Shown here piece after piece: positions 1,560 to 28,580 of a DNA stretch of 29,546 nucleotides. The notes under the pieces were generated by a model. The model was not told the DNA's origin. It saw only the letters and a program-made list of their open reading frames with translations, and ran no database searches. A program made the position numbers and the translations under genes. Each line of letters starts with the position of its first letter. Position 1 is the stretch's first letter. The DNA lies in IMG/VR virus record IMGVR_UViG_3300037598_000078, positions 1-29,546 of that record; one strand, 5' to 3'. Source of the stretch: a virus.

Positions 1560-3764
1560 ATGACAAAAGAGTCGGAGACAAATACCGAATTAACCAAAAG
1601 GCTCCAGCCTGGTTGGGTGAATGAACCCTCTGTGGAGAACCTGAAACTTGATCTGGATAATGCAGATCAAGACCAACAGTCTCACAATCGGAATGTTGAA
1701 AGATGGTTAAGTAATCTCATGGTTACTGGTACTGCTAAACCCAAGACAGTTAAGGGAAGGTCCTCTATTGCTCCTAAGTTAATTAGGAAACAAGCAGAGT
1801 GGAGGTACCCGGGTTTATCAGAACCCTTTCTTAGTTCACCGGATATCTTTAATGTTCTACCTACCTCTTCTGGAGATAGGTCACGGGCTATACAGAACTC
1901 TCAGATATTGAATAACCAATTCAATCATAAGATTGACCGGGTTGCTTTCGTTGACGCGTTTGTGCGGGATGTTGTTGATCTTGGTACGGTTATATGTAAA
2001 GTAGGTTGGCTGACCGAAGAGGAAGAGATCACTTCTATGGTTCCCACTTATAACTATACTGAGGTCGTAGATCCAGAACAATATCAACAGATGGCTCAGC
2101 AGTATACGCAGCTTGCTCAGTTGAGTTCTACTAACAAGGATCTCTTCTACGAGCACTCCAATCCTGGAATTGAGAAAGCCATTGAGGTTTTTATGACTAC
2201 AGGACAGATCCTCATGCCTGAACAGACAGGTGAAGAGCCTGAAACCAAGATGGTTGAAACTGTTAATCAACCGACAGTAGAGGTCTGTATCTCCGCTAAC
2301 ATGATTATGGACCCGTCATGTAATGGGGATCTAAGTAAAGCCAATTTTGTGGGTGAGAAGTTTAAGTCCAACCTTGATGAGTTGAGGAAAGATGGACGGT
2401 ATGTCAACCTTGATCATCTTGATGTATCCGATACTGACCCAATTTCTAATCCTGATTACGAGGAGACAAAAGACGTTGAGTCTTTTGGCTTCACCGATAA
2501 ACCCAGGAAACAGTTCGTTGTCCACGCATACTGGGGTAACTGGGATATTGATGGTTCCGGTATGACCAAACCCATTGTTGCTTTTTGGGTCGGGACTGTA
2601 ATGATCAGACTTGAGGAGAACCCCTTCCCTGACAGGAAACACCCATTTGTAAGTGTACCTTACATGCCCATGCGTAAATCGTTATTCGGTGAACCTGATG
2701 GCGAATTACTCTTTGAGAATCAGCAGATCATTGGTGCAGTTACCCGTGGTGCAGTGGATCTTATGGGTAAGGCAGCCAACGGGCAGACCGGCTTCAAGAA
2801 CGGTCTACTGGATGTAACCAATCAGCGGAAGTTTGATCGTGGTGATAACTACAAGTTCAACTCCAATGAGGATCCAAGACAGGGGATACATACTCACACC
2901 TATCCTGAGATACCTGGTTCAGTATTCAATATGATCACCATGCAGACTAATGATGCCGAAAGTATGTCAGCCATTAAGGCCTACAGCTCAGGAATCACTG
3001 GAGCTTCTCTGGGTGAGTCTGTAAAGAATGGTAGGAGTGCTCTTGATGCTGCCAGTAAACGTGAGACAAGTATCCTCCGTAGGTGTGCTTCCGGTATGGT
3101 GAAGATTGGCCACAAGTTCATCTCCATGAACTCTGAATGGTTATCTGAGGAAGAGGTTGTCAGAATCACCAATGAGAAGTTTGTCACAGTCCGGAGAGAT
3201 GACCTCGCTGGTCACTATGATTTAACACTGACCATCTCTACTGCTGAAGAAGATAATAAGCAAGCAGAGGAATTGGCCTTCATGCTTCAGACCGATGTGA
3301 ACATGGACCCTGATATGCGTAAGATGCTCCTGTCTGATATTGCTCGACTCAGGAAGATGCCTGATATGGCGAAGAAGATAGAAGAGTATCAACCACAGCC
3401 AGATCCTAAAGCAGAGGCTAAGTTTGAACTTGAGATGAAGTTACTTGAGGCACAAATTGCTAAGGAACTTGCACTGGTTGCTAAACACCATGCTTCTGCA
3501 GAATTGAACGGAATGCAGGAAACCAGGGAGATCAGTCAGTCAGCTCTTAATACAGCTAAGATTAGTACTGAACAAGCAAAAGCTCGTGACCTTGGTAGTA
3601 CAGCAGATGCGAAGGATTTAGATTTTGTTGAGCAAGAGTCCGGTGTACACCAAGAAAGGGACTTGCAGAAAATAGAAAAGACTGCTACTGTTAAACCAAA
3701 AACAGAGTCAAAAGCAAAGCCTGCGCCAAAAAAGGTTGCAGCTAAACCAAAAAAGAACAAATAA
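1560..3764 (+). CDS. Portal protein (N4 gp59-like)
   Basis: This 734-residue protein is predicted to form the dodecameric portal ring at the capsid vertex, used for DNA packaging and exit. The length fits N4-type portals (roughly 750 residues). The N-terminal part has the style seen in podovirus portals: basic RKQAEWRYPGLSEPF, then an asparagine-rich helix and VDLGTVICKVGW. The end is helical and probably coiled (about residues 600-690) and finishes in a Lys/Ala/Pro-rich basic tail that could contact DNA. The ATG at 1560 follows aaggtg at suitable distance. It is first in the structural series, directly followed by the small head gene, scaffold and capsid genes, as in N4. No catalytic motif is expected. 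Assignment rests on size, composition and gene order. Confidence 0.8.
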   Translation: MTKESETNTELTKRLQPGWVNEPSVENLKLDLDNADQDQQSHNRNVERWLSNLMVTGTAKPKTVKGRSSIAPKLIRKQAEWRYPGLSEPFLSSPDIFNVLPTSSGDRSRAIQNSQILNNQFNHKIDRVAFVDAFVRDVVDLGTVICKVGWLTEEEEITSMVPTYNYTEVVDPEQYQQMAQQYTQLAQLSSTNKDLFYEHSNPGIEKAIEVFMTTGQILMPEQTGEEPETKMVETVNQPTVEVCISANMIMDPSCNGDLSKANFVGEKFKSNLDELRKDGRYVNLDHLDVSDTDPISNPDYEETKDVESFGFTDKPRKQFVVHAYWGNWDIDGSGMTKPIVAFWVGTVMIRLEENPFPDRKHPFVSVPYMPMRKSLFGEPDGELLFENQQIIGAVTRGAVDLMGKAANGQTGFKNGLLDVTNQRKFDRGDNYKFNSNEDPRQGIHTHTYPEIPGSVFNMITMQTNDAESMSAIKAYSSGITGASLGESVKNGRSALDAASKRETSILRRCASGMVKIGHKFISMNSEWLSEEEVVRITNEKFVTVRRDDLAGHYDLTLTISTAEEDNKQAEELAFMLQTDVNMDPDMRKMLLSDIARLRKMPDMAKKIEEYQPQPDPKAEAKFELEMKLLEAQIAKELALVAKHHASAELNGMQETREISQSALNTAKISTEQAKARDLGSTADAKDLDFVEQESGVHQERDLQKIEKTATVKPKTESKAKPAPKKVAAKPKKNK

Positions 3765-4112: not shown

Positions 4113-5282
4113 ATGCCTGATCAGGAAACAGATGTACTGAATATGTCCGATGAGGACTTCCTCAAACTGCCAACTCCTGAACCAGTAGTAGAGGCAGAAG
4201 AGGAAATTGTTAATGATCCGGAAGTTGACGAAGCTGCGGCACTGGCTGCAGAAGAGGCACAGAAAGCAGAGGATGCTGCTGCGCTTGAAGCAGATAAGGA
4301 CAAAGACGAAACCGGTGCAGACACCACAGTAGTGGATGATGTAGACAAAGATAAGGACGGCACAGCAGACGATCAGGCCAAAACTGATGTAAAAAAAGAG
4401 GACCTTGATGCGTCTGCTGCTGCCCCCGATCCAGAAAAAGAAGAGGTTGTCATTGACTACAAAGCGGAGTATGAGAAACTACTTGCTCCCTTCAAAGCCA
4501 ATGGTAGTGAGATGCAGGCTAAAAATGGTGATGATGCACGGAGTCTCATGCAGATGGGAGCCAATTACCATAAGAATATGCAGGCATTAAAACCTCAGAA
4601 GAAGATGTTAAAGCTCCTGGAAAAGAATGGTCTAATGGACCAGAAGCAACTGAATTACTTGATTGACCTCAATAACAAGAACCCCGAGGCAATCACAAAG
4701 CTTTTGAAAGATAGTGGGATGGACCCTTTGGACATGGTAGAAGATGTCAAAAAGGAAAGTAACTACTCGCCAACCCAGCGTGAGGTATCTGACACAGAGA
4801 TGGCTTTAGAAGGAGTGCTTGAAGACATTCGATCAACTCCGTCTTACAGTCGTACTCTCAATATCATTACCAAAGAATGGGACGACACAAGTTGTGATGC
4901 GCTTGCTGCTACGCCAGAAATCATTAAGACGATCAATGGGCATGTGGACAATGGTATTTTCGATAAGGTCACAGAGGCAGTTGCATACGAACGCAGTTTA
5001 GGTAGACTTACTGGCGTTAATGATTTTGAGGCCTACAAGCAGATAGGAGATGTCCTTGAGCAGGCAGGCGCATTTGAAAAACCAACCAGCAAGGGGCCTA
5101 AGAACGTGGTCGTAGAAAAGACTGAAACTCCGTCAAAGGCAGAACTTGAAAGGATTGCAAAGAAGAAAGGTGCTGCGCCCGTGAAGGCCGCTAAAGCTCC
5201 GGCCTCAACTAAGCATAAAGATCCTCTTGATATGTCTGATGAGGAGTTTACCAAACTCGACAAGAAACTATTTCGCAGTTAA
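4113..5282 (+). CDS. Scaffold-like head assembly protein (N4 gp57 position)
   Basis: A 389-residue protein directly upstream of the capsid gene. The first ~115 residues are very acidic and rich in Ala, Asp and Glu (low complexity, probably disordered), followed by a helical middle part and an Ala/Lys/Pro-rich stretch. Almost the same short motif stands at both ends: LNMSDEDFLKL at residues 9-19 and LDMSDEEFTKL at 372-382, followed only by DKKLFRS. Acidic, helical composition and location before the capsid gene are typical of scaffolding proteins that line the procapsid and leave before DNA fills the head. The duplicated terminal motif may bind capsid subunits. No protease catalytic motif was seen. 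The scaffold role is inferred from composition and synteny. Confidence 0.65.
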   Translation: MPDQETDVLNMSDEDFLKLPTPEPVVEAEEEIVNDPEVDEAAALAAEEAQKAEDAAALEADKDKDETGADTTVVDDVDKDKDGTADDQAKTDVKKEDLDASAAAPDPEKEEVVIDYKAEYEKLLAPFKANGSEMQAKNGDDARSLMQMGANYHKNMQALKPQKKMLKLLEKNGLMDQKQLNYLIDLNNKNPEAITKLLKDSGMDPLDMVEDVKKESNYSPTQREVSDTEMALEGVLEDIRSTPSYSRTLNIITKEWDDTSCDALAATPEIIKTINGHVDNGIFDKVTEAVAYERSLGRLTGVNDFEAYKQIGDVLEQAGAFEKPTSKGPKNVVVEKTETPSKAELERIAKKKGAAPVKAAKAPASTKHKDPLDMSDEEFTKLDKKLFRS

Positions 5283-7531: not shown

Positions 7532-8188
7532 ATGACCGATTTAGAAAAAAAGTATACAAATCCGAGTCCCTTTGACGAACCCACAGATGATGCCCTTGAA
7601 CCAGTTGATGAGTTGGCCTCCCTGAAAGCCAGGGCAGCTACCATGGGTATCACACATCACCCTAAAATTGGGGTGGATAAGTTGAAAGCCAAGGTCAATG
7701 CAGCCCTTAAAGGTGAGCCCGATCCCGATGATAAACCTGCTGAAGAGGTTACTCCTCCGGTTGTTGAAGAGCCTGCAAAGGCCGAGCCAGCCAAGAGAAC
7801 CAAAACAAAGAAAGAGTTGCTGGCTCTCTACCATACCAAACTACGTAAAGAGGCAAATAAACTGGTCCGGATCAGACTCACATGCATGAACCCTGATAAG
7901 ACTCAATGGCCTGGCGAAGTCTTCGATGTGGGTAATTCTATCACTGGTTCAATTAAAAAGTTTGTACCCTTCGAAGCAGAAGACGGTTACCATGTCCCTT
8001 ACATGATCTACGAGGTTCTCGTTAATCGGAAGTATCAACAGCACAAGAAAGTCAGACTACCCAACGGAGCTTGGGGAATTAAGTCCGGACTGGTTAGAGA
8101 GTTTGCTGTTGAGTTGCTTGACCACTTGAAGCCTGTAGAGATGAAGGAATTGGCTACTCGCCAGGCACTTAACCATAGTATTGATTAA
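7532..8188 (+). CDS. Conserved virion/head protein with SAP/LEM-like motif (N4 gp55 position)
   Basis: A 218-residue protein with three parts. Residues about 25-60 (ASLKARAATMGITHHPKIGV followed by DKLKAKVN) look like a HeH/LEM or SAP-type helix-extended-loop-helix, a small fold often used for DNA or protein contact. A Pro/Glu/Lys-rich linker covers about 62-95. The C-terminal ~120 residues (RIRLTCMNPDKTQWPGEVFD, VPYMIYEVLVNRKY) form a beta-rich domain conserved in this position in N4-like and other podoviruses. It starts behind CGGAGA, 15 bases after the endonuclease stop; without the inserted endonuclease it would directly follow the capsid gene. A structural role is inferred from context; no enzyme motif is visible. 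Confidence 0.65.
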   Translation: MTDLEKKYTNPSPFDEPTDDALEPVDELASLKARAATMGITHHPKIGVDKLKAKVNAALKGEPDPDDKPAEEVTPPVVEEPAKAEPAKRTKTKKELLALYHTKLRKEANKLVRIRLTCMNPDKTQWPGEVFDVGNSITGSIKKFVPFEAEDGYHVPYMIYEVLVNRKYQQHKKVRLPNGAWGIKSGLVREFAVELLDHLKPVEMKELATRQALNHSID

Positions 8189-12139: not shown

Positions 12140-12493
12140 ATGGGTATATTTGATTTCTTACAGGACAAACCAATGGATAGTGGTACTTGGTTGACCAAGA
12201 CAGACCCTAATACTGGTATGAGTAAACAGGGTTGGGGTAACTTCGGTCTTAGTGCTTTGCTGGCTGGTGCTGGTATGTACCTGGGTAATAGGCAATTGGG
12301 TTTGGCAAAGGATCAGTTTGCTGAAGCCAAGCGTCAGTTCGGTAAGAACTTTGGTGCACAGGTTCAGAACTACAATACGAATATCAGAGACAGACAAGAC
12401 AGGCGGTACTCTGGTGCTGGCGGTGATCGTGTAGCCTCTAACCCATATCAGAAAACAGACGAGTATATGGCCCAAAATAGGATGGTAGGTTAA
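12140..12493 (+). CDS. Small virion-associated protein (N4 gp52 position)
   Basis: 117 residues from the ATG at 12140. An upstream GTG at 12131 is in frame but touches the AGAGGGG ribosome binding site; the ATG stands at a normal distance from it, so it is preferred. The protein has a glycine-rich hydrophobic stretch (FGLSALLAGAGMYLGNRQLG), then a charged amphipathic helix (LAKDQFAEAKRQFGKNF) and a basic Arg/Asp-rich tail. Small proteins of this layout precede internal virion proteins in many podoviruses and may coat or insert with them. Its stop overlaps the next start (TAATG), implying translational coupling. No enzymatic motif. Confidence 0.62.
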   Translation: MGIFDFLQDKPMDSGTWLTKTDPNTGMSKQGWGNFGLSALLAGAGMYLGNRQLGLAKDQFAEAKRQFGKNFGAQVQNYNTNIRDRQDRRYSGAGGDRVASNPYQKTDEYMAQNRMVG

Positions 12494-14490
12494 TGGCAAC
12501 CCCAATTACATGGAAGAATGTCGGAGCAACCATAAGCGGTGACGCTGCCGGTGAGACTATGGAAGGCGGTGTAAAAACCGCCATGGGTGCATTTGATCCC
12601 TTACAACGATTGCGTAGAGAAGCCCAAGACATCTCTGATCAGAACTATGAGCAGGGTGGTGTGAATCTGAACCTTGAGGAGCAGGCACGACAGAAAGCTG
12701 GCTCCCTCTTAGAATATAATCAGATGAAGGCATCAGGGCAATTCGATGATGCTGCAGCCAAAGAAAGGCTTGGTGTCAGGTATGATCCTGTAGCAGCCGA
12801 AGCAGCAAGGACAAAGCAACAGGCTGATCTCCGGACTACTGCTTCCGGAGAGGCTATGGCTGCTGGTGAAACTGCTGGTGATGAGGCCAGTTCTTCTCTT
12901 GCTGGAACACAGGCTTATGAAGCTAAACTCAGAGAGTTGGGTGCGTCTGAAGAGTATATTAAATCCTCGGCAGCTAATTATATGAAAGATGATGTTGTCA
13001 ATCAGGCCCAGTACAAAGCAGAGACTGAGAAAGTTACCGATGAGGTAATGAGGGGAAAAAAGTTTGGTAGTAACGCTGAGATTGAAGAATACATTGCTGA
13101 ACAGAAAGGTATTCATGGCAACTCCTTTGACGGTAACCGTGCCAGATCCCAAGCTCAGAGTTTAATGAAGGGCGGGTTTGATGATGAGGTCAGAGATGAG
13201 GCTAAGCTTAAAAAGGTCAGGACAAAGGCACTTGATCAAGTTGCTGGTAAAATCATGACAGATGTCACTGCTGGTAAAAGCTTAGATGAGATTAAACAAT
13301 ACATTGCTACTTTGCCTGAAGATCAGCGAGAAGATGCATATGCAAGAGCACAAGCCATTGAGTCATCAATTAACAGTATGACTGCAACTGAAAAGATTGA
13401 TCATCAATTTGCTGTTAAGCAGATTACACATATGGGTATCGACCTTAAAGAAAGGCAAGCCAGCGAATTGGGTATTCTTGATGCCCAAATTGAGGCTCTT
13501 GATTTGGCCCCATCTCCAGAAATCCAAGGTGCAGTAGCCAAACTCAATGCAACTATGGGAGTAGGCTCAGGTGTAGAGGCCACGTATGAGAAAGGACTTG
13601 CTGCTGGCATAGTAAATGCTTTGTGGGCTGGTCCTGATATGCAGACAGGTACTAAAGTTGGTGATACAGTCAGAATCAGATTGGACCGTTTACTACTGGA
13701 TGGTGGTCTAACTCGTGATGAGGCAGCCGGTATCATTTTTACTGCTGAACAATTTGCTCGCCGAAGCGGTGGTGCAGGTACAATGAAGTTTGACAACAAA
13801 ACCTTTGAGGCTATGGTCAGTAAGATGAACAGGGATGTTCTTGCCGCTAAAAAGTTAAAGGTACAACGTGCTTCTAAACAGTCAGAGCATATGCTACAGA
13901 ATTCAGGTTTCCGCACTGCTGCTGCTGCATGGGAACGTGATTCTGCAAAGAGTCTACTCGGAAGTGGTAAAACCAAAGTTCAACCATTTGGGTTTACTGT
14001 CAACCCGAGTAAGGGTAAGACACCCGAGACTGATGTAAATACTGAGGCTGGGAAAGTCATTGAAGGTGTTGGCGGTAAAGGGAAGACTACTATAGTTGCT
14101 GCTGCTGGGCAAACTGTTGACCCACCACAAACAGCTATAGCCAACCGAGCTGCAGAGATAAAACTACTGAAGTCAGTAAAAAATGTAACTGAAAACGAGG
14201 TAAAGAATACTCCTAATATTTTAAACTCTATTAAGGCACAAGATAATATATTGAAAGCACTGGGCACCACTCTTGAGAGAGATATTGTCAAAACTGAAGA
14301 AGACCAGGTTAAAGTAAAAGAAGCTATTGATAAAATAAAGGCTTCTTGGGCAAAACAAAGAGAAGCCAGTAAAGCTAAACATAGGCAAGCACAGTTATCC
14401 GAAGCTGAATACACAAAAGCCATGATGGGTACGATAACTAAAGCTTTACGGAGTTCTGGTATATCCGACTATGTACATGGTAAACAATAA
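12493..14490 (+). CDS. Helical internal virion protein, putative ejection protein (N4 gp51 position)
   Basis: A 665-residue protein rich in Ala, Lys, Glu and Gln, with long predicted helices throughout and a coiled-coil-like C-terminal third (residues about 540-650). There is no signal peptide, membrane helix or recognisable catalytic site. The middle part contains an Ala/Gly-rich stretch with LDRLLLDGGLTRDEAAGIIF, reminiscent of helical bundles in podovirus internal core proteins. It starts at the TAATG overlap with the previous gene and lies directly upstream of the virion RNA polymerase gene. In podoviruses, proteins in this position are packaged in the head and leave with the DNA. Role inferred from composition and order. 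Confidence 0.55.
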   Translation: MATPITWKNVGATISGDAAGETMEGGVKTAMGAFDPLQRLRREAQDISDQNYEQGGVNLNLEEQARQKAGSLLEYNQMKASGQFDDAAAKERLGVRYDPVAAEAARTKQQADLRTTASGEAMAAGETAGDEASSSLAGTQAYEAKLRELGASEEYIKSSAANYMKDDVVNQAQYKAETEKVTDEVMRGKKFGSNAEIEEYIAEQKGIHGNSFDGNRARSQAQSLMKGGFDDEVRDEAKLKKVRTKALDQVAGKIMTDVTAGKSLDEIKQYIATLPEDQREDAYARAQAIESSINSMTATEKIDHQFAVKQITHMGIDLKERQASELGILDAQIEALDLAPSPEIQGAVAKLNATMGVGSGVEATYEKGLAAGIVNALWAGPDMQTGTKVGDTVRIRLDRLLLDGGLTRDEAAGIIFTAEQFARRSGGAGTMKFDNKTFEAMVSKMNRDVLAAKKLKVQRASKQSEHMLQNSGFRTAAAAWERDSAKSLLGSGKTKVQPFGFTVNPSKGKTPETDVNTEAGKVIEGVGGKGKTTIVAAAGQTVDPPQTAIANRAAEIKLLKSVKNVTENEVKNTPNILNSIKAQDNILKALGTTLERDIVKTEEDQVKVKEAIDKIKASWAKQREASKAKHRQAQLSEAEYTKAMMGTITKALRSSGISDYVHGKQ

Positions 14491-14549: not shown

Positions 14550-17500
14550 ATGCCAATTACTTTACAAGAACTGAAAGATTCCCCAGCATACAAAGGAACT
14601 GATCAGTTATCACAGCAACGGGCTGAGGAAGCCGTAACCGGCTCAGCATGGGAAGCAAATGTTGTAGATACTGGTTATGCGGGTGCAACTGAACAAGAAA
14701 GGGTTGATATTGAGTCTACTTTTGATATCAAACACCCTTTAGGGCCAAATATCCGGGTTGCACAAAAGGGCAGAGAAAAGTCCTTTAGTGAGAACCTGGG
14801 CGGGGCACTTGTTGAGAGTGGTTATATGGTAAAAGATGCCATGACTGTGGCCTTGGATGCCGGTATGGATAGTAAACAGACTGCTGTCACGTTGGCTGCT
14901 GCTGCTAAACGGAAAAAGTTAAACTATATACCCAGTGAATCAGAATCGGTTAATGAGTTATTGGGTAAAACAACCAGGGAATATGATGAGGCTGAGGGGT
15001 TTACGGAAACAGGTAAAGTAGTATTTTCTGCGGTTCTTGGTGGGTTAAAGGAGATTGTTGATAATCCTGCAGGTATTCTGCTTCTCGGTGCCCAGTCCCT
15101 GGGATTTGCTGCTCCTTCTATGGCAGGTGCATTGGCAGGATCAGCAGTGGGTGGTATTCCTGGCGGTGTTACTGGTGCGTTCATTGGAGCATTAGGGCCT
15201 GAAGCTGGTGCCAGGTTTGAAGAAGAGGTCACAAAAGAGTTAAATAAGAGGAGGCTCCTACCTACTGTAGAAAACATAATGTCCTTACAGCAAGATGAGA
15301 CATGGCTGGCTATGGCCACCAAGAAGGCACATCTCAAAGCTGTCGGTACTGCGTTGTCTGATGCTCTTATGGGTCCCATGATTGGTAGGAGTGCAACTGC
15401 CCCTTTTCGACAAGGACAGAAAGAAGCCAGAAAAGCATTGATGGGTGCTGGTCAAGATGTCACCAGGGAAGCAGTTGATGCTTTGGCACCTCGATTCATG
15501 AAACCACGTTCCTTCTCAGCAACTCTGGGTAGTAAAGCCAAAACATATGCTCAGCAGATTGGATCCGAAGTGGTCAGTGAAGGTATAGGTCAATTAGCTG
15601 CTGGAGATAGTTTAGATGCTGGTAACCTTTTAGGTGAGGCACTGGGTGCAGTTGGAGCAGGTCCTATTATGACTGCTGTTGATAAGGCAGCATATGGAAC
15701 CAAGTCTTCAGTAAAGACAGCCGGTAGTATCAAGAAAGCTTTATCACCTGAAGGTAAGGCAGCCCGAGCAGAAAAGAAAGTCAATAAAGCACTCAGTACT
15801 CCAGAGACGACATTTGGTTACAAGGACAAGGTATCCACGGTTGCTGAATCCGGTGATGCTTCTACGTACAATGATCCAAGTAAATCAACTTATTCCCCAG
15901 GTATTGAGATAGCAGCTCTTAAAGAGAAGAATATGGAGGAAGGCGTAACCACTGCTGAGCAGGCTGACACTTATGAGCAGGCCAGTGTAGCCTATGATAA
16001 AATGTATGATCAGATGACTTCCTTAGATGAGGAGATTACTGCCCTTGTTGCTAAAGAGACTCCGACCAAGGAAGAGATGGATAGGTTGGATACTGCTATG
16101 GGTAAACTGGATTCCCTTGAGATTCTTCAGCCTAAAGTAAAAACCATGCTGGAAAGTATGAAAGCTGATAAGACCAAAGCTCCAGAGTTGATGGAACAGC
16201 TCCGGACTATGATGAAGGATAGTAATGATGAAGGTGCAATAAATACTGTAAAAGAGATATTCGGTTCCCATGGTGGAGCATTCCTTTCTGAATCTGACAG
16301 TATTGCCCTTGATGACATAATAGGTAAATCTGCTACTACCCCAGAAACAAAAACAGTACTTGAGCAGGTTAAAGCATATGTCAATACCAAGACTGTTGCT
16401 GAGAAAGCCCAAGGTAAGAAGATGGAACAAGTTTCCCGGGATATCAAAGAAGGTGGTATTGACTTTGTTGGTACTGATGACCATCTCCAAGGTATTGCTG
16501 CTGCAAGTACCCCCAGGGTAGCAAGCAATAGACTTGCTAAATTAAAGAAACATGTTGATGCTGTACAGCTTAAGGCTGACACATTCCAAAGTGTTTATGA
16601 GACTGCCCAGGGCGCACCAGAGAATTCGGCTGCCCAGGCACAGATGGATAAGTATAATAAAGAACGAGTAGAGCCTTATAATATTCATACTGGTTCAGGT
16701 AGATTAGTTGAACAAATAATTAATGATGCTAAAGTAGTCCAAGCTGCTATGGCTCTTGGTAATACATTGGTTCATGGGCCTTCTTCGACAGAGATAGCCG
16801 CAAAGCAGGATTCTCCTCCTGTACAGTCCGGCACTCAAATTCCTGTTACATCAAAACCTGCCGGGACTGAGCAGGTTGATGGGGATGCTCCTTCCACTCC
16901 CAAACAATCGGGAGCTGGGACGGGTCAGTCTAAAGCAGATACTCTTGAAGATCTGTATGTCGATCCTGCTGCTGAAATCAATGAAGAGGATTATATCGAT
17001 TCTCCTCTCCCTCCCACTCCCGAGGACCAAGAGGCAGAGTCTCTCACTCCTGTGGCGCAGGCGCAGCCGAGCACTCAGGATGAGGTAGACGTAGCCGATG
17101 GTCCGGCAGCAAATACTATTTTAGCTAAAAGCACTCCATTTGTTGTAGCCAAAAAACTTAAGAAAAACGTAAACTTGATGCTACAGCATTTCCCTGTACT
17201 CTTGGATCAATTCCGTGAAAATATACTATCCAAGACACAAGGGATCTTCACTAAAAAGAATCCTTATGATGAAAATGCTCAGGTACTGGCTGAGTCTATT
17301 AACCGGTTTGGTCGTAAGTTTGAGGCCAACCATAACCAGATATTTAAAGCAAAGATTTTAGAAGGGGTTATCTATAACCAAAAAGGGAAGAGACTCTCCC
17401 CTCAAGAAGCAGATAACCTACTTTTGAACAAAGGTATCGCCTATACAAAGGGACGTAAGGAACTTACCCAGGAACAGTTCCAAAAGAAGATGGATACCCG

Positions 17501-20500
17501 GGGTGACTTATTCACCGAAAATGACCCTATTCAGCACTTTGTAAACAAGAAAACAGGTAAACTGTCACCTGCAGTTGTCAATGCTATGATGGCTGCCTCC
17601 TTTAAATTCATTGCTGCCGAAGGATCATCCACGCTGTATAATGATGATCGGGCTATGAATGGGATCATGGGTACCCCCAGTAAAGATCCTGTATCAGATA
17701 GTGCAAGGAAGTTACTTACTCAGCTTGGTACTCAACAAGATTATCTAAAAGACCAGTTAGGGCAGGATATATTTGACTTACTCAAAGTTGACATTGCTTC
17801 TGGTGCAGACTTCGACTTCAAAGAAAGGTTGGTTAGTTCTTTGGGTTTACAAGCCATTGCCACTATGCAGTATATGCACTTTCTTAAAGAGACTAAGGTC
17901 ATTACAGGTGGTGGTGAGATAACAATCCCAGGTACTGATAAAAAAGTACAAATAGCAGCATCAGCAATTACCAATGGTTTGATGGGCTTAAAGAATGAGC
18001 AGACTGATCCTGATAAAACAAAGTTTAGTGGGTTAGAGAACAACTTCTTCGTAGATCCTAAAGCTCCTACTCGGTCCCAGTTGGAGAGGGCTTTACGTGA
18101 AAAGGATATTAGTAAGGCACGTATAACAGAGACTGAAAGCCAGTTAGAGGCACTTAAAGGTAGAGGTACAGTAAGCTTTTACAAAATTGCATCTCAACCC
18201 AGGTCTGCTAAAGATGCTACCCGAGTTCCGCACGAAACCTTGCAAGAGGATTATATGTCTCCTTTTCATGGTTCAAAACATACTTGGGATCTTATCTTTA
18301 AGGGTGAACCCAGTAGAAAGGATTATAGTTGGGGCAAGTTTAACTTCAAGAAGGGTGAACGGTTACGTACTAAGAAAGCAGGTGGTCTGTTTACTGAGGA
18401 ACAATCCAGTAACATGATCAAGAATATGAACAGCCCGATAGTGGCTAATGCACCAGTAATGAATGCATTTTATTTTCTTGGTGAAGATCAGAGAGCAGAG
18501 ATTTTGGGGTATACTGGTGATAAACCAGCTCATGTTAGTCTCGCAGAAACCAATAAGGGTAAAGACTTAGGTATTCTCCGAAGTATGGAGGCAGTAAATA
18601 ATTGGCTGCTGGATGCATGGCAACAGGAGTATGGTACGGATTCTGAGTTCTTTATCCCTTCCGAGGCATGGAAACAAGAGAGAATGGGTCAAGCATCTTC
18701 CATTACTCTTCAGGGCGATAAACTACACCGGTCCCTGTACAACATGGCTTCCTGGAAACATAAAGTCACCATAGGAAACAATGATCAGTATTACGCATTC
18801 ATGCTGGGTGTTGGTATGTACATGGACCTTGAGTTTACCAAAGAAGGGGGTTTATTTGAGACGGTAGATGCAACTGAGAAACTTATGGCATCAGACGAAA
18901 TAGTTAAAGCAGTCAAGGCATTACAGAAACTCCAAACTCAACTGGATGATTCTCCGGTGGTTCCCGGGCAGGCACAGCCTGACCTTATGACCCAATTAGG
19001 TAATGAGACTGACCAAAATGGTATTGCCATAAATGCAGAAGACCAGGCTGCCATAGTTGCTGCTGTAAAGATCGGAAAGGTGCAAGCACAGTCTCTTAAA
19101 GCACTGGTAGAGTATGCTGCATATAAGACAGCCGTGGAGTCTGGAGCCAAAGACTTTGAAACATTTATGACCATTGAGATTGATGGTACAGCCAATGGTT
19201 CTGCATTCGGTAGATGGCAGTTAATGGGAGGAGGGTTTGAGCCTCTTCTCCATCTTGCTGCTTTGCAGACAAGTGGGTTTCGTTTTCATGGTGATTCGTC
19301 ATGGGACCTGTCCGAGCATCTTGCTGAGGCACTGAACCATGATGCGTATCAAATTACTGGTTTCGCAAATGCTTATACCCTGATAAATAAGCAAGAGTTC
19401 CTGTCTGATAGAAGTGACACAGCCGAGACTCCTGGCAAACGGGCAGCCGCACTCGGTGCACTTGCGAGAATGCAGGCTATACAGTATTTCCTTGGTTCAC
19501 CAATTGATGCTGAGACTGGTAATGTTTCCAAGGATATGAGGAAGTTATCCAAGCACCCTACCATGAAGACTATGTATGGTATGGGTAAAACAAAACTCAC
19601 ATTAGGGTTGATTAATACTATTATTGAGAAGATCCATGAAGACATTGCTGCACTGGCCACAGCCAAAACTGCTGATGAGGTAATTAAGGCAAGGGAGACA
19701 CTAAAAGAGATCAGTTACCAGGTATCTGTACTGTCCGGTGAAATGAAGTTCGTTAACCGTGAACTTATCTTTGTCAACGGTGACCCATTAATTCACAAGA
19801 ATTCCATAGACACAATGGGTTTAGACGAGCTTGTTAATGTTGAATTATCCAAGGATACAATAAAGAAGATACATGCACATGTGGTGAAGAATGAAGGGCC
19901 TGCCTTATATGCCGCTATTATCAGTGTTTTCAAACCCATTAAAGATAGCTCCAGTAATGTCAATAATGCACTGAGCATGGCCACTGCTTATTATAATGTG
20001 ATGCGGAAAGCATACATTGATAAAGCAGTGAATGAGAAGTGGGGTAAAGACAAGCCTATTGAGATAGAGAAAGTGTTCTTGACAGTTGCTGAGATGGAGG
20101 CAATTGATGCTAATCTTAGGGATCTCTATCCCCAGGTACGCAGTGCAAATGGTGGTGTGATGCCTATAGCAAAAAGGGACAAAACCAAGGATTACAAAGA
20201 GGGTCATGATGTAATTCAACAATACCAAGCGAAGGATAAAGGTAAAGGTAAAGTTGGTCAGAAGATCGCCTACTCCCAGAAGTATAACCGACTGGAGGAT
20301 CCAGGTGTAAGTGGTGTTGTTCTTATGGTGCAGTCTATGGATGCAGCAGTGGCCAATCGGCTTATGGAGCACTTTGATTTCCTTAACAACCATGATGGGT
20401 TTACCATCGGTGCAAACATGGGAGCTGAACTGGCTGATAAAGCCAACGAAATCTTTGTGGATATCAATTCAAACTACTCTATTGCAGGGGTAGTTGAAGA

Positions 20501-23500
20501 ACTTCTTCTTACAAGCAAAAGGAGGTTTGAAGAGAAAGCTGCAGAGATCGGTCTGGATATTGAAGAGGCCTTATACCAGGAACTCAAAGAGCTATCCATA
20601 GGCAAGAAGTATGATGAAGATGCTATTGATCCTATTACTAAGAAGCCTGGTACTTTTGTTCCCATGACCAAAGAAGAGATGTTTGCCGACTCTACTCAGT
20701 ATGCTGACAGAGCACCCATGGATGTACAGGCAATACTTGAAGGTGATCCTGAAGGTTTACCTACTAATGTTCAGGATAATATTGAGAATTACCTTCACGG
20801 AACCCTGCTTTCTAATATCGCTCAGCGGGACGAGTTGGCCGGTAAACTGGTTGGAGCCTCCCAGTATGCGTATGCAAGCCGAGAGTACCTGACAGGTAAC
20901 AAACCTGCAGAAGAGATATTTGGTGTTAAACCTGGTGATATTACCAAGGCCAAGCAAGGGCAGTTACAAAGTATCATTGATATTATTCAGGGGAAGATGG
21001 AGGACATTAAAGATACTTCTCCTCAGAATACTTTGGGTAGTAAGGCTGATAGTACCCTCACCACAGACAAAGCAAGGTATACTCTGCATCAGGAAGTAAA
21101 TAAACTGAATGTGGTAGATACATACGATATTCTGCAGGGTGACAGTGCTGTTAAAGACAGTCAGTCTCACTACGATCACCTTAAGGGGTTAATGGCCGAT
21201 GTTGTTCAGAAGGTAATGAACCCTGTCAAGTTGCACATGATCAAAGATGGTTACAGAGAATCCGAGGGTAAGTTCGTATTCGACCCTAATGGTAAGCATG
21301 ATATGTTTATCACGAGTCAGGTTAATGCTCCTGTATCCGGTGCACTGAACCATGGAATAAGAATGTCTACAGGTGAGGTCTATGCTCATGAGTTGGTCCA
21401 TGGTATCACACTCTTTGGTTTAAAGAATGATGAGGGACTCCGGAACAAGGTAGGTGTCTTGTATGACCTTACTATGAAAGGGATCGCAGAGAAGTACCCT
21501 GATGGTGACGGTTTTAGGCTATTCCTAAGTAGACCCGGTATAAACATTAAAGATCCTGCTTATGTTCCCGAGGTACAGGCAGCCAAAGAGAGGTATGAGT
21601 ATTTCCTGGGAACTGGAGCAGTCCGGACAGAGAAAGTAATAAACCCAACAACTGGTATTGAGTCCAGTAAAAGGTTCTCTAACCATCTGGAGGAGTTTGC
21701 TGCCTTTGGAGCTACCAATGAGACTTTTGGTAACTTCTTGAAGACTGTTACTATGAGTAGGGCGAAGTACACCAAGTCTTCTTGGGGTGATATGAAAGGT
21801 GATAACATCCAGCAGACCCTGATCAATGTATTCCAGAAGATCATGGATTTCTGGACTGGGACCATACGTGGTGGTAGGACTGGAACTGATGTAAATCAAG
21901 AGTTGCTGTCTTTGGTTGCCAGGCTAAGTGAGGTTGAGAGTAGGTATAAGAATAACCTAATTGATTCTGTATCCAGTAGATTGGATCCAATTACAAAAAA
22001 AGCATACGATAAAGGTAATCAATGGATTAAGAATGCTTTTGTCAGTATGCCCGTTACACGATTAGCTACTGGTCTGCGAGGTATGACTGAATCTATGAAA
22101 GATTCCGATTCCATACTTGGACAGCTTATGAGGGATCTGGATGCTCAATGGTCAGCAATGGATGAGGGTATATTCAAATCCTTAGTAACTGAGCTTAAAG
22201 GACGAACAGATAGGCTGACTCCGCTATACGAAATTCTTAACCGGGCAGCCGTATTTGTTGATGGAGCCAGGACTACTCATACTGGTATTACAGAATCTGT
22301 AGCCAGGGAGGCTTTTCTTCGTAACCAGTCTGAAGATACAAAGAAACACCTTACCCAGGATGAGTCCATGGGTGTTACCAAAGTACTGTTGAAGACAGAT
22401 GCTACTGTGTTAAATAAACTACTACCAAAAGGCAGGCTGCTGAAGGTTCTCCAGAGTTCTGCAGAATTACAAAAAACAATACTCGATACAATTAAGGAGA
22501 TGAGGACAGTCGGTAAAGATGGTGTGGATTTGAACCAGTATGTTGATTACTACAGAGCAGCGTCAGATGCAGCCGGACACAGAATGGCTACAGGGACTGG
22601 TCGAAAGAATGAGATATACTTCCGCTCCTCCAAGGTAATTGTAGAAGGGAAGAATACTTCCCTGGAGTTGAAGATGACTACCGAGGAGAAAGCAAAAGCA
22701 GACGATTTGGTGTCTAAACTGATTAGTTTGTATGCTCTTCAGTACACACCAGCCGATCATAAGAAGACTGTAGCTAAGTTGATGGTAGAGGATGCAGACG
22801 GAGTAAAGGCTGTCCTGTCCCTACACAGTCATCTAAAGGAAGAGGCAAAGAAGAAAGCCTTTGGGGATAATGAGTATCTAATGGAGAAAGGGTATACTAA
22901 AGAGTTACTCAACACCCGTATCCAGTATGAGTACGGTACCCTCGCCGATGAGGAGATTATGATCGCTGCTGGTTATACCCGTGGTCGTACGGCTGTAGGC
23001 AGGGACGATGATGATCTGACAAAAGACATTCCTATGTTTATTTACACTTCTAAGATTGGTCGGGTAAATGACAGGTTAGCGACTATGACTGGTTTCCAGA
23101 ATAATGCAGCCAAGGGTACAAGTACCAGGGATCTCAATAACCAGTTAGATATTGATACTATTCAAGGAGCCAAGAATAAGCAGCATATTATGAAGCAGAA
23201 GTGGGCCAAGCTCGAAAGCATGACCCAACCTGGGTTTGTTCCTGGCGATGTCGGTAATGTGTTTGACCCTATTGTTGATGGTCTGGGTAACATAACCGAT
23301 TACCGTTACACCATGTCCGAATCAACCAAAGATGGTGTCCTTGAAAAGATAAATGATTATGAGACTATTCTTGGTTCAATGGCGGGTCAAGTTATTGGTA
23401 AGGAGAGGAGCCCTATTGTCAATACTGAAGTAGTTCTTGCTTTGAAAGAGTTATATGACAAAGAGTACAAAGCTAAACCTGACTCCTATGTAACCATTGG

Positions 23501-24698
23501 GCCTGATGCTACAGACCCAAAACTGGTAGAACTCTACTATCTTTTCCCTGATCAGATGAAAGCTGATATCCGTAGGGAGTGGGGAGGGAAATCTATAAAG
23601 GTATCCAAAGATGTTATGACCTTAGTATTTGGTTATCGTCAGTACTCCACTACGGAGGCATTTACCAAGGATCCAAAAGAACGTAATCTATACGAGAAGA
23701 TTATGGTGGCAACCTTTAATTCTATAGCTATTCCTCTTGGTTCAACAGGTATTACATCTTTGCATAATGCAGAGCAGTTTGCCTCAGCAACTGCTGCGTA
23801 TGCAAAGAACACGATTGTTGTGAAGACTGGTTTTGTTACAATGGCCAATATGGGTTCCAACTTAATGAACTTGAAAATGAAAGATATCCCTACAATGACT
23901 ATTCTCCGGAAGTCCCGGGAAGCACTGGTCATGGGTAATAAATACCAGGCTGACAAGAAGAAACTGGATAAGACTAAATTGAGGTTGGAGATTGTTAAAG
24001 ATCAGAGGGGGTATACTGCAGGTCTTGAGAATGAGGTTATGCGATTAGAGAACTCATTGGCACGGAATCCTGTAACAGAGGGTATTGAATCAGGCCTAAT
24101 ACCTACCTTGATGGATGATGCAGATACTACCGTAAGTAAGACCAGACACCCTCATGAGTTTCAGAAAGCTGTTGATAAGCAGGTAGCTAAACTACATCCA
24201 GTGATCGCTGGTGCAGGTAAACAGTTACTTCTGACCCAAGACACTCAAATGTACAGGTTGCTCAATAATGCCGTTAAAATGACTGACTTCGTTGGAAGGC
24301 ATGTCTTGTATGACCATTACGTTAAAACGCTTAAAATGGATAAGAAAGAGGCTGCCGCTAAAGCAATCGAAGAGTTCATCAACTTTGCTCCTCCCACACA
24401 TCAGTTTATTGATTATTTAAACAGGATGGGTATATTGATGTTTACCAAGTATGGTGTTAGAGTTTTAAAGACGATGGCAACTAATGCAGTAGATAAACCT
24501 TTTAGTGTACTTATGACTTTAGGTTCTGCAAGTGTCTTGGGAATGTCTACGATATTTGGATCCATTCCAGGTGTTACGAAAGGTCTTCTTAGCAACTGGT
24601 CAAACCCTGTAAGCATGTTCACTGGCTCGTTTATGGAATCCCTCCCTCTTGCAGGAATGGAATCTGTGTCTGAAACTCTTCTAAGTGGTGGTAAATAA
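14550..24698 (+). CDS. Giant virion RNA polymerase (N4 gp50-like) with metallopeptidase-like site
   Basis: 3382 residues. In N4 the homologue is packaged, injected with the DNA and transcribes early genes from hairpin promoters. Residues 1-743: helical, with a Gly/Ala-rich hydrophobic section at about 172-220. Residues 744-860: Pro/Ser/Thr/Glu-rich linker. Polymerase from about 861 to 2010: motif A EIDGTANGSAFGR with D1545; motif B with R1664, K1668, Y1676 and G1677, the exact R-x3-K-x7-YG spacing of T7 polymerase; motif C NHDGFTIG with H1948 and D1949. The TxxGR region appears as QERMG around R1378. Residues 2280-2284 are HELVH, with E2381/E2382 in LEEFAAFG as candidate third ligand, a gluzincin-type zinc site. 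The end has INFAPPTHQF (from 3277) and a hydrophobic stretch at 3318-3345, perhaps for encapsidation or membrane passage. AGGAGA precedes the ATG. The polymerase call is strong, the peptidase moderate. Confidence 0.92.
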   Translation: MPITLQELKDSPAYKGTDQLSQQRAEEAVTGSAWEANVVDTGYAGATEQERVDIESTFDIKHPLGPNIRVAQKGREKSFSENLGGALVESGYMVKDAMTVALDAGMDSKQTAVTLAAAAKRKKLNYIPSESESVNELLGKTTREYDEAEGFTETGKVVFSAVLGGLKEIVDNPAGILLLGAQSLGFAAPSMAGALAGSAVGGIPGGVTGAFIGALGPEAGARFEEEVTKELNKRRLLPTVENIMSLQQDETWLAMATKKAHLKAVGTALSDALMGPMIGRSATAPFRQGQKEARKALMGAGQDVTREAVDALAPRFMKPRSFSATLGSKAKTYAQQIGSEVVSEGIGQLAAGDSLDAGNLLGEALGAVGAGPIMTAVDKAAYGTKSSVKTAGSIKKALSPEGKAARAEKKVNKALSTPETTFGYKDKVSTVAESGDASTYNDPSKSTYSPGIEIAALKEKNMEEGVTTAEQADTYEQASVAYDKMYDQMTSLDEEITALVAKETPTKEEMDRLDTAMGKLDSLEILQPKVKTMLESMKADKTKAPELMEQLRTMMKDSNDEGAINTVKEIFGSHGGAFLSESDSIALDDIIGKSATTPETKTVLEQVKAYVNTKTVAEKAQGKKMEQVSRDIKEGGIDFVGTDDHLQGIAAASTPRVASNRLAKLKKHVDAVQLKADTFQSVYETAQGAPENSAAQAQMDKYNKERVEPYNIHTGSGRLVEQIINDAKVVQAAMALGNTLVHGPSSTEIAAKQDSPPVQSGTQIPVTSKPAGTEQVDGDAPSTPKQSGAGTGQSKADTLEDLYVDPAAEINEEDYIDSPLPPTPEDQEAESLTPVAQAQPSTQDEVDVADGPAANTILAKSTPFVVAKKLKKNVNLMLQHFPVLLDQFRENILSKTQGIFTKKNPYDENAQVLAESINRFGRKFEANHNQIFKAKILEGVIYNQKGKRLSPQEADNLLLNKGIAYTKGRKELTQEQFQKKMDTRGDLFTENDPIQHFVNKKTGKLSPAVVNAMMAASFKFIAAEGSSTLYNDDRAMNGIMGTPSKDPVSDSARKLLTQLGTQQDYLKDQLGQDIFDLLKVDIASGADFDFKERLVSSLGLQAIATMQYMHFLKETKVITGGGEITIPGTDKKVQIAASAITNGLMGLKNEQTDPDKTKFSGLENNFFVDPKAPTRSQLERALREKDISKARITETESQLEALKGRGTVSFYKIASQPRSAKDATRVPHETLQEDYMSPFHGSKHTWDLIFKGEPSRKDYSWGKFNFKKGERLRTKKAGGLFTEEQSSNMIKNMNSPIVANAPVMNAFYFLGEDQRAEILGYTGDKPAHVSLAETNKGKDLGILRSMEAVNNWLLDAWQQEYGTDSEFFIPSEAWKQERMGQASSITLQGDKLHRSLYNMASWKHKVTIGNNDQYYAFMLGVGMYMDLEFTKEGGLFETVDATEKLMASDEIVKAVKALQKLQTQLDDSPVVPGQAQPDLMTQLGNETDQNGIAINAEDQAAIVAAVKIGKVQAQSLKALVEYAAYKTAVESGAKDFETFMTIEIDGTANGSAFGRWQLMGGGFEPLLHLAALQTSGFRFHGDSSWDLSEHLAEALNHDAYQITGFANAYTLINKQEFLSDRSDTAETPGKRAAALGALARMQAIQYFLGSPIDAETGNVSKDMRKLSKHPTMKTMYGMGKTKLTLGLINTIIEKIHEDIAALATAKTADEVIKARETLKEISYQVSVLSGEMKFVNRELIFVNGDPLIHKNSIDTMGLDELVNVELSKDTIKKIHAHVVKNEGPALYAAIISVFKPIKDSSSNVNNALSMATAYYNVMRKAYIDKAVNEKWGKDKPIEIEKVFLTVAEMEAIDANLRDLYPQVRSANGGVMPIAKRDKTKDYKEGHDVIQQYQAKDKGKGKVGQKIAYSQKYNRLEDPGVSGVVLMVQSMDAAVANRLMEHFDFLNNHDGFTIGANMGAELADKANEIFVDINSNYSIAGVVEELLLTSKRRFEEKAAEIGLDIEEALYQELKELSIGKKYDEDAIDPITKKPGTFVPMTKEEMFADSTQYADRAPMDVQAILEGDPEGLPTNVQDNIENYLHGTLLSNIAQRDELAGKLVGASQYAYASREYLTGNKPAEEIFGVKPGDITKAKQGQLQSIIDIIQGKMEDIKDTSPQNTLGSKADSTLTTDKARYTLHQEVNKLNVVDTYDILQGDSAVKDSQSHYDHLKGLMADVVQKVMNPVKLHMIKDGYRESEGKFVFDPNGKHDMFITSQVNAPVSGALNHGIRMSTGEVYAHELVHGITLFGLKNDEGLRNKVGVLYDLTMKGIAEKYPDGDGFRLFLSRPGINIKDPAYVPEVQAAKERYEYFLGTGAVRTEKVINPTTGIESSKRFSNHLEEFAAFGATNETFGNFLKTVTMSRAKYTKSSWGDMKGDNIQQTLINVFQKIMDFWTGTIRGGRTGTDVNQELLSLVARLSEVESRYKNNLIDSVSSRLDPITKKAYDKGNQWIKNAFVSMPVTRLATGLRGMTESMKDSDSILGQLMRDLDAQWSAMDEGIFKSLVTELKGRTDRLTPLYEILNRAAVFVDGARTTHTGITESVAREAFLRNQSEDTKKHLTQDESMGVTKVLLKTDATVLNKLLPKGRLLKVLQSSAELQKTILDTIKEMRTVGKDGVDLNQYVDYYRAASDAAGHRMATGTGRKNEIYFRSSKVIVEGKNTSLELKMTTEEKAKADDLVSKLISLYALQYTPADHKKTVAKLMVEDADGVKAVLSLHSHLKEEAKKKAFGDNEYLMEKGYTKELLNTRIQYEYGTLADEEIMIAAGYTRGRTAVGRDDDDLTKDIPMFIYTSKIGRVNDRLATMTGFQNNAAKGTSTRDLNNQLDIDTIQGAKNKQHIMKQKWAKLESMTQPGFVPGDVGNVFDPIVDGLGNITDYRYTMSESTKDGVLEKINDYETILGSMAGQVIGKERSPIVNTEVVLALKELYDKEYKAKPDSYVTIGPDATDPKLVELYYLFPDQMKADIRREWGGKSIKVSKDVMTLVFGYRQYSTTEAFTKDPKERNLYEKIMVATFNSIAIPLGSTGITSLHNAEQFASATAAYAKNTIVVKTGFVTMANMGSNLMNLKMKDIPTMTILRKSREALVMGNKYQADKKKLDKTKLRLEIVKDQRGYTAGLENEVMRLENSLARNPVTEGIESGLIPTLMDDADTTVSKTRHPHEFQKAVDKQVAKLHPVIAGAGKQLLLTQDTQMYRLLNNAVKMTDFVGRHVLYDHYVKTLKMDKKEAAAKAIEEFINFAPPTHQFIDYLNRMGILMFTKYGVRVLKTMATNAVDKPFSVLMTLGSASVLGMSTIFGSIPGVTKGLLSNWSNPVSMFTGSFMESLPLAGMESVSETLLSGGK

Positions 24699-26042: not shown

Positions 26043-28580
26043 ATGTTTGCTGTTTATGAAGCAGATGTCAGCGGATTAGTCTCATTAGGTAGTGATTCAA
26101 TTATCCTACCATCAGGCCGCCAATTCACCAAATATGCCTTCTACTACAGCCCCCTGCTCGGCAAGGATATGGTCAGTGGTGCCTTGATCCAGGGCAACCC
26201 TGTAATTGGTGCTGACGGGTTGCTGAGTACCTGTGGGCCGTACACGGTGCTGAATGGGATGAGCAATGATATTAGTGATCCTTATTGGAGTGAAATCATT
26301 GTCACGGTATTAAGTCCTAATTCTTTTGTAGCCCCCTCACAGTGGTCATACCTCCAGAAGAGTATTAATACAGTCGATGGGAAACTATACACAGTGTCTT
26401 TTTACGCATATGTAGAACCTGGAGGACAATTAGATGGCTATGAGATTAAACATAGTAGCAGCGCCTCTGGGAATCAAGCGTACATATCTTTAACAGAAGA
26501 AAGAAAGAGGTACACTAAGACTGTCATAGGAAAAACAGGTGGTGGTGTAGTGCAATTTGGTATAGCAGATAACAACATATCTAACTGGTCAAAGGTCTAC
26601 ATAGACACAATCAATATCACAGCAACCCCCTACGCCATGCCACCTGCAATCAACACAACTACAGGGCAGTTGTCAGTTCCCAGTAGCTTTGCTGGTCTTG
26701 GTGTTGGGCCTAAGTTCCCAGTCGGCTCTGCCTTGCCTGATCTTGCTTCGGATTTCTGGACTGTGGTTGGGGGTGAATTGCTACCAGCAGCGGTGGACTT
26801 AACTTCGGATTGGCAGGCAACAATAGATTGTGTCATAAACGATTTGAGTTCTTTCACAACATCTGTGAATTCGAGAGGGGTATTCACAGCATCCACCGTT
26901 CTTATTGTAGGTAGTTATTATGAAATAAGTATAATTGCCTCATCCACAAGTGATCTCATGGCTGTTTCGTACAGCACTGTCACAGGCTCAGCGACCTCGG
27001 TGAACGTACTTAAAGATGGGACTCCGGTAAGGATGTTAGCAGGTGCTGACAGGCTATATATCAGGAATACTACAGCGGCAACAACAGAGTTGATTTCGGT
27101 GTCACTCAAACAAATCCAACCCTCCCAAGCCTGGCAAGCCTGCGGAGATAATTTACTGAATAGTTTTGACGGAGCGGCTGATGGGGTGGAGTTAACTGAT
27201 TATGAAACGGATAAATCATATGGGGATTGTACGAGAATAAGTGGAGCAAGTTATGCCATTGCCACTATTTTAAATGATTCAGGGTATAAAGATGGTGGTA
27301 TACTGATACCAGGGGCAGAATACGAGGCTACCTTCAGAATCTTTGATTATGTTGAAGGTGCTATGCAGGTCAGTGAGTTCAGTGGTGCTGGGGCAATTAG
27401 CAGAGATGCTAATGGGACTTACACTGAAAGATTTACAGCCCCCGATAATATTTTAGTATTCAAGAGAACTGTAAATCCCACAACGCTTAAATTTGAAATC
27501 ATCTCAGTCAAAGAAATCTCCCCGGCTCAAGGTGAACTTGTTGTCGAGTGGATGCCTATGTTCTCCACAGCCAATGTCACCGGGGTTGTTAATATTCTGA
27601 CTGCTAATGACGATGCAGGAAGCTTTCTCTTTTACAACGGAGCTACCCAGGAGATTCATGCTTTTGACGGTGTTAATACAGCCACGGTTCCTTGTGTACC
27701 AGTTGCAGGCCAGTTGTACGAAATTGGGTTTACCTGGGGTGAGAATACCGGGCAAAAGATGCAACTCTCTTTAGACGTTTCAATAGGGAGCATTACCCCA
27801 TATAACGGCAGGGTGCCGGTTGCCGATGCATTGTCTTTCGGATGGACTGCCACTGATTGGCAGAGCTTTGGACATGTAAAACTATTGAAGGAGCCTGTAT
27901 GGACACCCACCATCTTCACCTTTGATGTAAATGCGACTCAAGTGATTACGGGTGCGTTTTCCACAACAGTAGGGGAAACAATCACGGTAGATTGGGGTGA
28001 TGGGACCAATGATACATACACGGGCACAGACCAGTCATATAGCAAGGACTATGGTTCTGTCGGGGACAGGGTGGTTAGCATCTATGGAGCATCCGGTGCT
28101 GTAATAACCAAGTTCACAATGACCACATCAGGTGCGGATATCTCTTTTGATATAACTAATGCTCCTTCAGGGCTAACTTATCTGGATATCTGGGGAGCTA
28201 ACACAGTATCTGGAGATCTCGGAACTGCTCCTTCAGGGCTAACTTATCTGGATATCAGGGGATCTAACACGATTTCAGGAGATATCGGAACTGCTCCATC
28301 AGGATTGACTTCTCTACTTATCACCGGATCTAACACGATTTCCGACTACATAACCAAAACCTGGACCACGATACCAGTAGCTTTTGACTTGCGTCCCGTA
28401 TCACCAGGCGGCTTATCCACAGCGGAAATAGATCAACTCCTGATCGACCTGGACACTGACTTGACCTGGACATCAGGCACAATAACACTAACAGGCACTA
28501 ACGCCCCAAGATCGGCAGCCAGTGACGCGGCTGTGGCTAATCTAATTTTAGAGGGTGTGACCGTCACCACTACTCCATAA
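26043..28580 (+). CDS. Modular adhesin / tail spike-like protein with PKD-like and leucine-rich repeats
   Basis: 845 residues, almost all beta-structure. A short N-terminal domain (VYEADVSGLVSLGSDSIILP) probably anchors it to the virion. Residues about 75-200 and 240-355 look like carbohydrate-binding jelly-rolls (QWSYLQKSINTVDGKLYTVS; YYEISIIASST with LYIRNTT). A third such section is followed by a concanavalin/laminin-G-like stretch around 500-620 (AGSFLFYNGATQEIHAFDG). Residues about 633-705 are PKD-like, with DWGDG at 650-654. From residue 707, three 22-residue leucine-rich repeats read APSGLT-x-L-x-I, G-x-NT(V/I)S. No hydrolase site is evident, so binding to host surface sugars is more likely than degradation. 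AAAGGAG precedes the ATG. The two following small genes may help its folding. Confidence 0.7.
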   Translation: MFAVYEADVSGLVSLGSDSIILPSGRQFTKYAFYYSPLLGKDMVSGALIQGNPVIGADGLLSTCGPYTVLNGMSNDISDPYWSEIIVTVLSPNSFVAPSQWSYLQKSINTVDGKLYTVSFYAYVEPGGQLDGYEIKHSSSASGNQAYISLTEERKRYTKTVIGKTGGGVVQFGIADNNISNWSKVYIDTINITATPYAMPPAINTTTGQLSVPSSFAGLGVGPKFPVGSALPDLASDFWTVVGGELLPAAVDLTSDWQATIDCVINDLSSFTTSVNSRGVFTASTVLIVGSYYEISIIASSTSDLMAVSYSTVTGSATSVNVLKDGTPVRMLAGADRLYIRNTTAATTELISVSLKQIQPSQAWQACGDNLLNSFDGAADGVELTDYETDKSYGDCTRISGASYAIATILNDSGYKDGGILIPGAEYEATFRIFDYVEGAMQVSEFSGAGAISRDANGTYTERFTAPDNILVFKRTVNPTTLKFEIISVKEISPAQGELVVEWMPMFSTANVTGVVNILTANDDAGSFLFYNGATQEIHAFDGVNTATVPCVPVAGQLYEIGFTWGENTGQKMQLSLDVSIGSITPYNGRVPVADALSFGWTATDWQSFGHVKLLKEPVWTPTIFTFDVNATQVITGAFSTTVGETITVDWGDGTNDTYTGTDQSYSKDYGSVGDRVVSIYGASGAVITKFTMTTSGADISFDITNAPSGLTYLDIWGANTVSGDLGTAPSGLTYLDIRGSNTISGDIGTAPSGLTSLLITGSNTISDYITKTWTTIPVAFDLRPVSPGGLSTAEIDQLLIDLDTDLTWTSGTITLTGTNAPRSAASDAAVANLILEGVTVTTTP
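28161..28358 (+). repeat. Three 66-bp coding repeats (leucine-rich)
   Basis: In-frame 66-bp units start at 28161, 28227 and 28293. The first two share gct-cct-tca-ggg-cta-act and following bases exactly; the third diverges at its end. Each encodes a 22-residue leucine-rich unit. High DNA identity suggests recent copy-number change. Confidence 0.88.

Follow-up and report, generated by a model that had tools for sequence, protein, structure and literature searches.

A predicted zincin-like metallopeptidase domain in the virion RNA polymerase of an N4-like phage, one domain downstream of the N4 site

What might be the role of a HExxH motif that lies within a virion RNA polymerase (vRNAP), beyond its polymerase motifs? 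The question is raised by the virus record IMGVR_UViG_3300037598_000078 of IMG/VR, analysed here over its whole length of 29,546 nt (the window). A preliminary description of this DNA had noticed the motif HELVH in a helix-like context, C-terminal to the polymerase motifs, together with a downstream glutamate that could be a third metal ligand, and had proposed a gluzincin-like metallopeptidase carried into the host with the polymerase. We show below that the site is conserved and that it lies in another domain than in N4, and we discuss what it probably does.

The site and its host gene

The gene that holds the motif belongs with the vRNAPs of the Schitoviridae: it matches the PHROG_2206 'virion RNA polymerase' profile and stands in an N4-like gene order, with portal, tape measure, major head and structural protein families of N4-like phages encoded upstream. 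Because related phage genomes span 66-78 kb, the genome represented by the 29,546-nt record is probably incomplete. Searches of the window with Pfam, NCBIfam and PADLOC returned no relevant family, the metallopeptidase region being without Pfam or NCBIfam coverage, and a nucleotide-level search among phages found no relative of the window. Two neighbouring ORFs are without a PHROG match: one of 665 aa immediately upstream (12493-14490), in the position of N4 gp51, and one of 845 aa downstream (26043-28580). The relevant features are as follows, slots A and B being the two places of the site described in the next section.

14550..24698, + strand: vRNAP gene, N4 gp50-like, 3382 aa (PHROG_2206, E ~ 0; phmmer against N4 vRNAP PDB chains, E 7e-28)
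19182..20399, + strand: single-subunit-RNAP-like motifs DGTANG (aa 1545), KTMYGMGKT (aa 1673) and NHDG (aa 1947), as string positions only, not a computed domain boundary
21162..21740, + strand: predicted zincin-like metallopeptidase domain, slot B, about aa 2205-2397 (AlphaFold2 model, profile homology)
21375..21377, + strand: E2276, glutamate four residues ahead of HELVH (76/76 intact slot-B sequences)
21387..21401, + strand: HELVH, aa 2280-2284, with proposed zinc ligands H2280 and H2284 and proposed general base E2281 (76/76; 51/51 in alignment A8)
21693..21695, + strand: E2382, proposed third zinc ligand (76/76; absent in 121/121 non-redundant slot-A-type vRNAPs)
21717..21719, + strand: N2390, within the conserved EF-x-A-x-G-x-TN motif (76/76)
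21747..24695, + strand: C-terminal region, whose homologue in N4 is the later part of C2 (alignment, aa 2602-3339 matching N4 2751-3460)

The three polymerase motifs are all N-terminal of HELVH, which is the sole HExxH of the 3382-aa ORF. The downstream stretch LEEFAAFGATN (aa 2380-2390) offers two glutamates, E2381 and E2382, and conservation points to the second, 98 residues past H2284: among the sequences with an intact slot B, glutamate is found at its position in 76/76, against 11/76 for E2381. E2276, H2280, E2281, H2284, E2382 and N2390 are likewise invariant in all 76, also in the most distant ones, about 16% identical to the window, and the loss of site residues in close homologues, looked for as a refutation, was not seen, all close relatives retaining them. 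That HELVH could be a functionless accident is untenable in view of this conservation: while 0.06 HExxH motifs are expected by chance in a protein of such size and composition, five site residues are invariant in 76/76.

An AlphaFold2 model of aa 2145-2470, computed with 51 sequences (the alignment rows being the window and IMG/VR), reached a pLDDT of 86.1 and a pTM of 0.83. A helix (2205-2222) is followed by three strands (2226-2233, 2239-2243 and 2250-2257), by the active-site helix (2274-2293), which holds HELVH as had been supposed, and by a separate, second C-terminal helix (2379-2389) bearing the third-ligand glutamate, with extra elements in between. Zincins are defined by an N-terminal helix, a three-stranded sheet and two C-terminal helices (Iyer et al. 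2017), and the predicted structure supports a zincin topology for the domain. Foldseek comparison of the model with the PDB gave nothing at E <= 0.001; in BFVD it retrieved other vRNAPs and, weakly, a granulovirus SprT (prob 0.54). The invariance of ligands and general base, the predicted fold and the relationship by profile, described below, with zincin domains known from N4-type vRNAPs all agree with the metallopeptidase domain initially proposed.

Two places for one domain

A zincin-like metallopeptidase is already known in N4 vRNAP, at aa 2130-2448 (Iyer et al. 2017). The cryo-EM structure of that protein delineates a domain C1 (aa 2124-2375), with a conserved HExxH at 2228, and a domain C2 (2376-3500) reported to be without structural homologues (Bellis et al. 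2025, PMC12633501), and a 2021 review repeats the zincin domain for Cbunavirus (PMC8472413). The domain is therefore known as a kind; its different slot in the window is something that we did not find described. Nor did we find a description of the two-slot pattern in the literature, whose supplementary files may contain one.

When 29 vRNAP C-terminal regions were aligned, each HExxH fell either in column 450, which we call slot A (N4, KP8, PEV2, S6, Zuri, R7L, Pylas and others), or in column 919, slot B (the window, JA-1, pVco-5, phi50-12, VBP32, pVa5, PT15-A5 and others), PG11 alone carrying both. The expectation that the same residues would be found at the equivalent place in N4 gp50 was thus mistaken: the HExxH of the window is in column 919 and N4 H2228, in column 450, belongs to a different, upstream domain. 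The N4 stretch that is homologous to the window domain, matched by the slot-B profile at 2435-2603 (E 2e-11), lies downstream of the N4 HExxH and has lost the site. Its predicted structure (49 sequences, pLDDT 80.5) is all-helical, with no strands at the expected position of the sheet.

The scan made use of three tighter sub-alignments, which replaced a 16-member C2 alignment. Profile-profile comparison found intact and decayed slot B to be homologous (P 99.9%, E 9e-32), and matched the slot-B family of the window with that of N4-type slot A (P 97.7%, E 1.5e-12), the HExxH and glutamate columns being aligned; a larger slot-B profile also gave a weak match to slot A of N4, in which HELVH and the NEFMAWG glutamate stand in register. 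On these profile comparisons, slots A and B are distantly homologous. In the window and in the other slot-B phages the slot-A domain is absent rather than decayed; the residues that a forced alignment had placed in 'slot A' of these phages were discarded as a decayed domain, being polymerase sequence around HDA/HDG.

To see how general this arrangement is, a census was assembled from IMG/VR loci recruited by the late C-terminal region (21747..24695), a site-independent anchor, whatever the state of the site, and from loci found with the slot-B profile. It comprised 238 regions: 157 with slot A intact and slot B lost, 74 with slot B only, 2 with both and 5 with neither; after dereplication at 90%, the respective numbers were 121, 60, 2 and 4. 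An intact site in one slot or the other is present in 175 of 176 informative vRNAPs (site-independent loci and phage records), a count that leaves out 58 loci recruited by the slot-B pattern, since this recruitment was biased to intact sites. The loss of slot B is all-or-none, the full ligand set being gone where slot A alone is used: among the 121 non-redundant slot-A types, the decayed slot B kept the first histidine in 0, the second in 1 and the glutamate in 0.

Among the five regions with neither site, three are truncated contigs (L215, L246, L248). A fourth (L098) has a slot-A HELVH at about nt 7638, out of frame with the rest of the vRNAP, which reflects a frameshift or a sequencing error in the record. 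The last (L234) is a real exception, a full-length vRNAP in which slot A is deleted and slot B decayed. It displays a HELAH at aa 1372 (locus nt 4115), N-terminal to the polymerase region, in a stretch with no Pfam match, and this suggests a relocated zincin. In Dinoroseobacter phage R7L (L023) an extra HETAH, possibly a second metallopeptidase, is located at aa 208 of the fetched part, far upstream of the intact slot A. Several independent switches between the slots had also been considered. This claim was dropped, as a single slot-A clade withstood an AU test (p 0.58), the constrained tree scoring better; the tree of the C-terminal region is compatible with such a clade and does not settle the number of slot changes.

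A probable protease step after ejection

We consider it probable that the slot-B zincin is an active, specific metalloprotease, ejected with the vRNAP and acting after ejection. H2280, H2284 and E2382 would bind a single zinc ion, and E2281 would be the general base of catalysis; the ejection machinery would carry the enzyme into the host along with the vRNAP, where it would act on a substrate-specific target. As N4 vRNAP is found intact both on packaging and after purification, and as the module also occurs without a polymerase, the vRNAP itself, ahead of packaging, is a less likely target than some other protein that is ejected or a protein of the host. In the literature on vRNAPs we found no metal or protease activity reported for any of them; no degradation was reported for purified N4 vRNAP, and its HExxH was left as that of a metalloprotease or of another enzyme type (Bellis et al. 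2025, PMC12633501).

The occurrence of the module without a polymerase is seen with the slot-A profile, which matches residues 420-560 of an internal virion protein of 1337 aa (PDB 9sfn chain G; E 1.6e-18), including HEAVH and the glutamate motif KELVAWGLT, and, at E 0.0018, the ejection protein gp48 (8vb2). A tblastn search with the 420-560 stretch recovered phiKMV gp37 and its relatives, Pectobacterium vRNAPs and a DarB-like protein. These matches in ejected proteins indicate that a related zincin travels both with and without a polymerase. As a side observation, phiKMV gp37 (NC_005045 32823-33245), annotated as 'internal virion protein with endolysin domain', holds a zincin-like stretch related to slot A of vRNAPs.

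It is possible, if doubtful, that the enzyme would rather cleave its own polypeptide after ejection, so that the polymerase would come loose from the C-terminal domain, or the membrane part at the N-terminus would be set free. The domain does have the polymerase on one side and the C-terminal domain on the other, and the C-terminal region of N4 vRNAP inhibits transcription in vitro (Bellis et al. 2025, PMC12633501); autoprocessing has moreover been proposed, with the cleavage of P1 DdrB cited (Iyer et al. 2017). Yet N4 vRNAP is packaged unprocessed, the recombinant protein shows no degradation, and in phiKMV gp37 the related module has no polymerase to free.

A metal site without catalysis, stabilizing only the fold or a domain interface, would suit a domain packed among large ones (N4 C1 touches the RNAP), but we regard it as unlikely. 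The general-base glutamate is retained in every intact site, as strictly as the ligands, which goes beyond what a purely structural metal site needs, and decayed copies persist as a helical scaffold once the metal site is gone, so that the scaffold is independent of the metal. Quite improbable, finally, is another type of HExxH enzyme, such as a 2-oxoglutarate/iron HExxH oxygenase, an alternative class mentioned for N4 C1, where the HExxH of radical-SAM-associated enzymes is named beside zincins (Bellis et al. 2025, PMC12633501): the strictly conserved downstream glutamate and the order helix, three strands, helix, helix fit zincins.

Returning to a protease that would act after ejection, we are inclined, by a small measure, to think that vRNAPs need one working zincin whose place is free: slot A, slot B, rarely both, possibly ahead of the polymerase as in L234, an unused slot B becoming a helical pseudo-protease at the start of N4 C2. 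If this were true, selection would bear on protease activity as such and not on the architecture of the polymerase. The near-universal presence of an intact zincin, its lineage-dependent position and the related module of phiKMV ejection proteins speak for a protease step that ejected proteins have in common. The start of N4 C2, a domain for which no structural homologue was reported, can be read directly as a decayed zincin.

Comparison with known systems

For SprT/Spartan proteases, besides the weak granulovirus match in structure, profile matches are weak (E 0.005-0.03), and membership in that family is not significant. The phiKMV-like gp37 (1337 aa; PDB 9sfn chain G) differs from the window by being devoid of a polymerase, and its zincin-like stretch is nearer to slot A than to the slot B of the window. 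The vRNAPs of Vibrio and Alteromonas schitoviruses (JA-1, pVco-5, phi50-12, VBP32, pVa5, PT15-A5) share with the window a slot-B site with all ligands and the lack of slot A, while they are about 24-32% identical to it over the domain; these counterparts are mostly annotated just as vRNAP, coil-containing or hypothetical protein. The zincin of N4 vRNAP is found in the same protein and on the same side of the polymerase, with ExxxHExxH, a downstream glutamate in EF-x-A-x-G-x-x-N and profile homology. The window, unlike N4, lacks slot A and has its site one domain downstream, where N4 retains (at about 2435-2603) a decayed, helical remnant.
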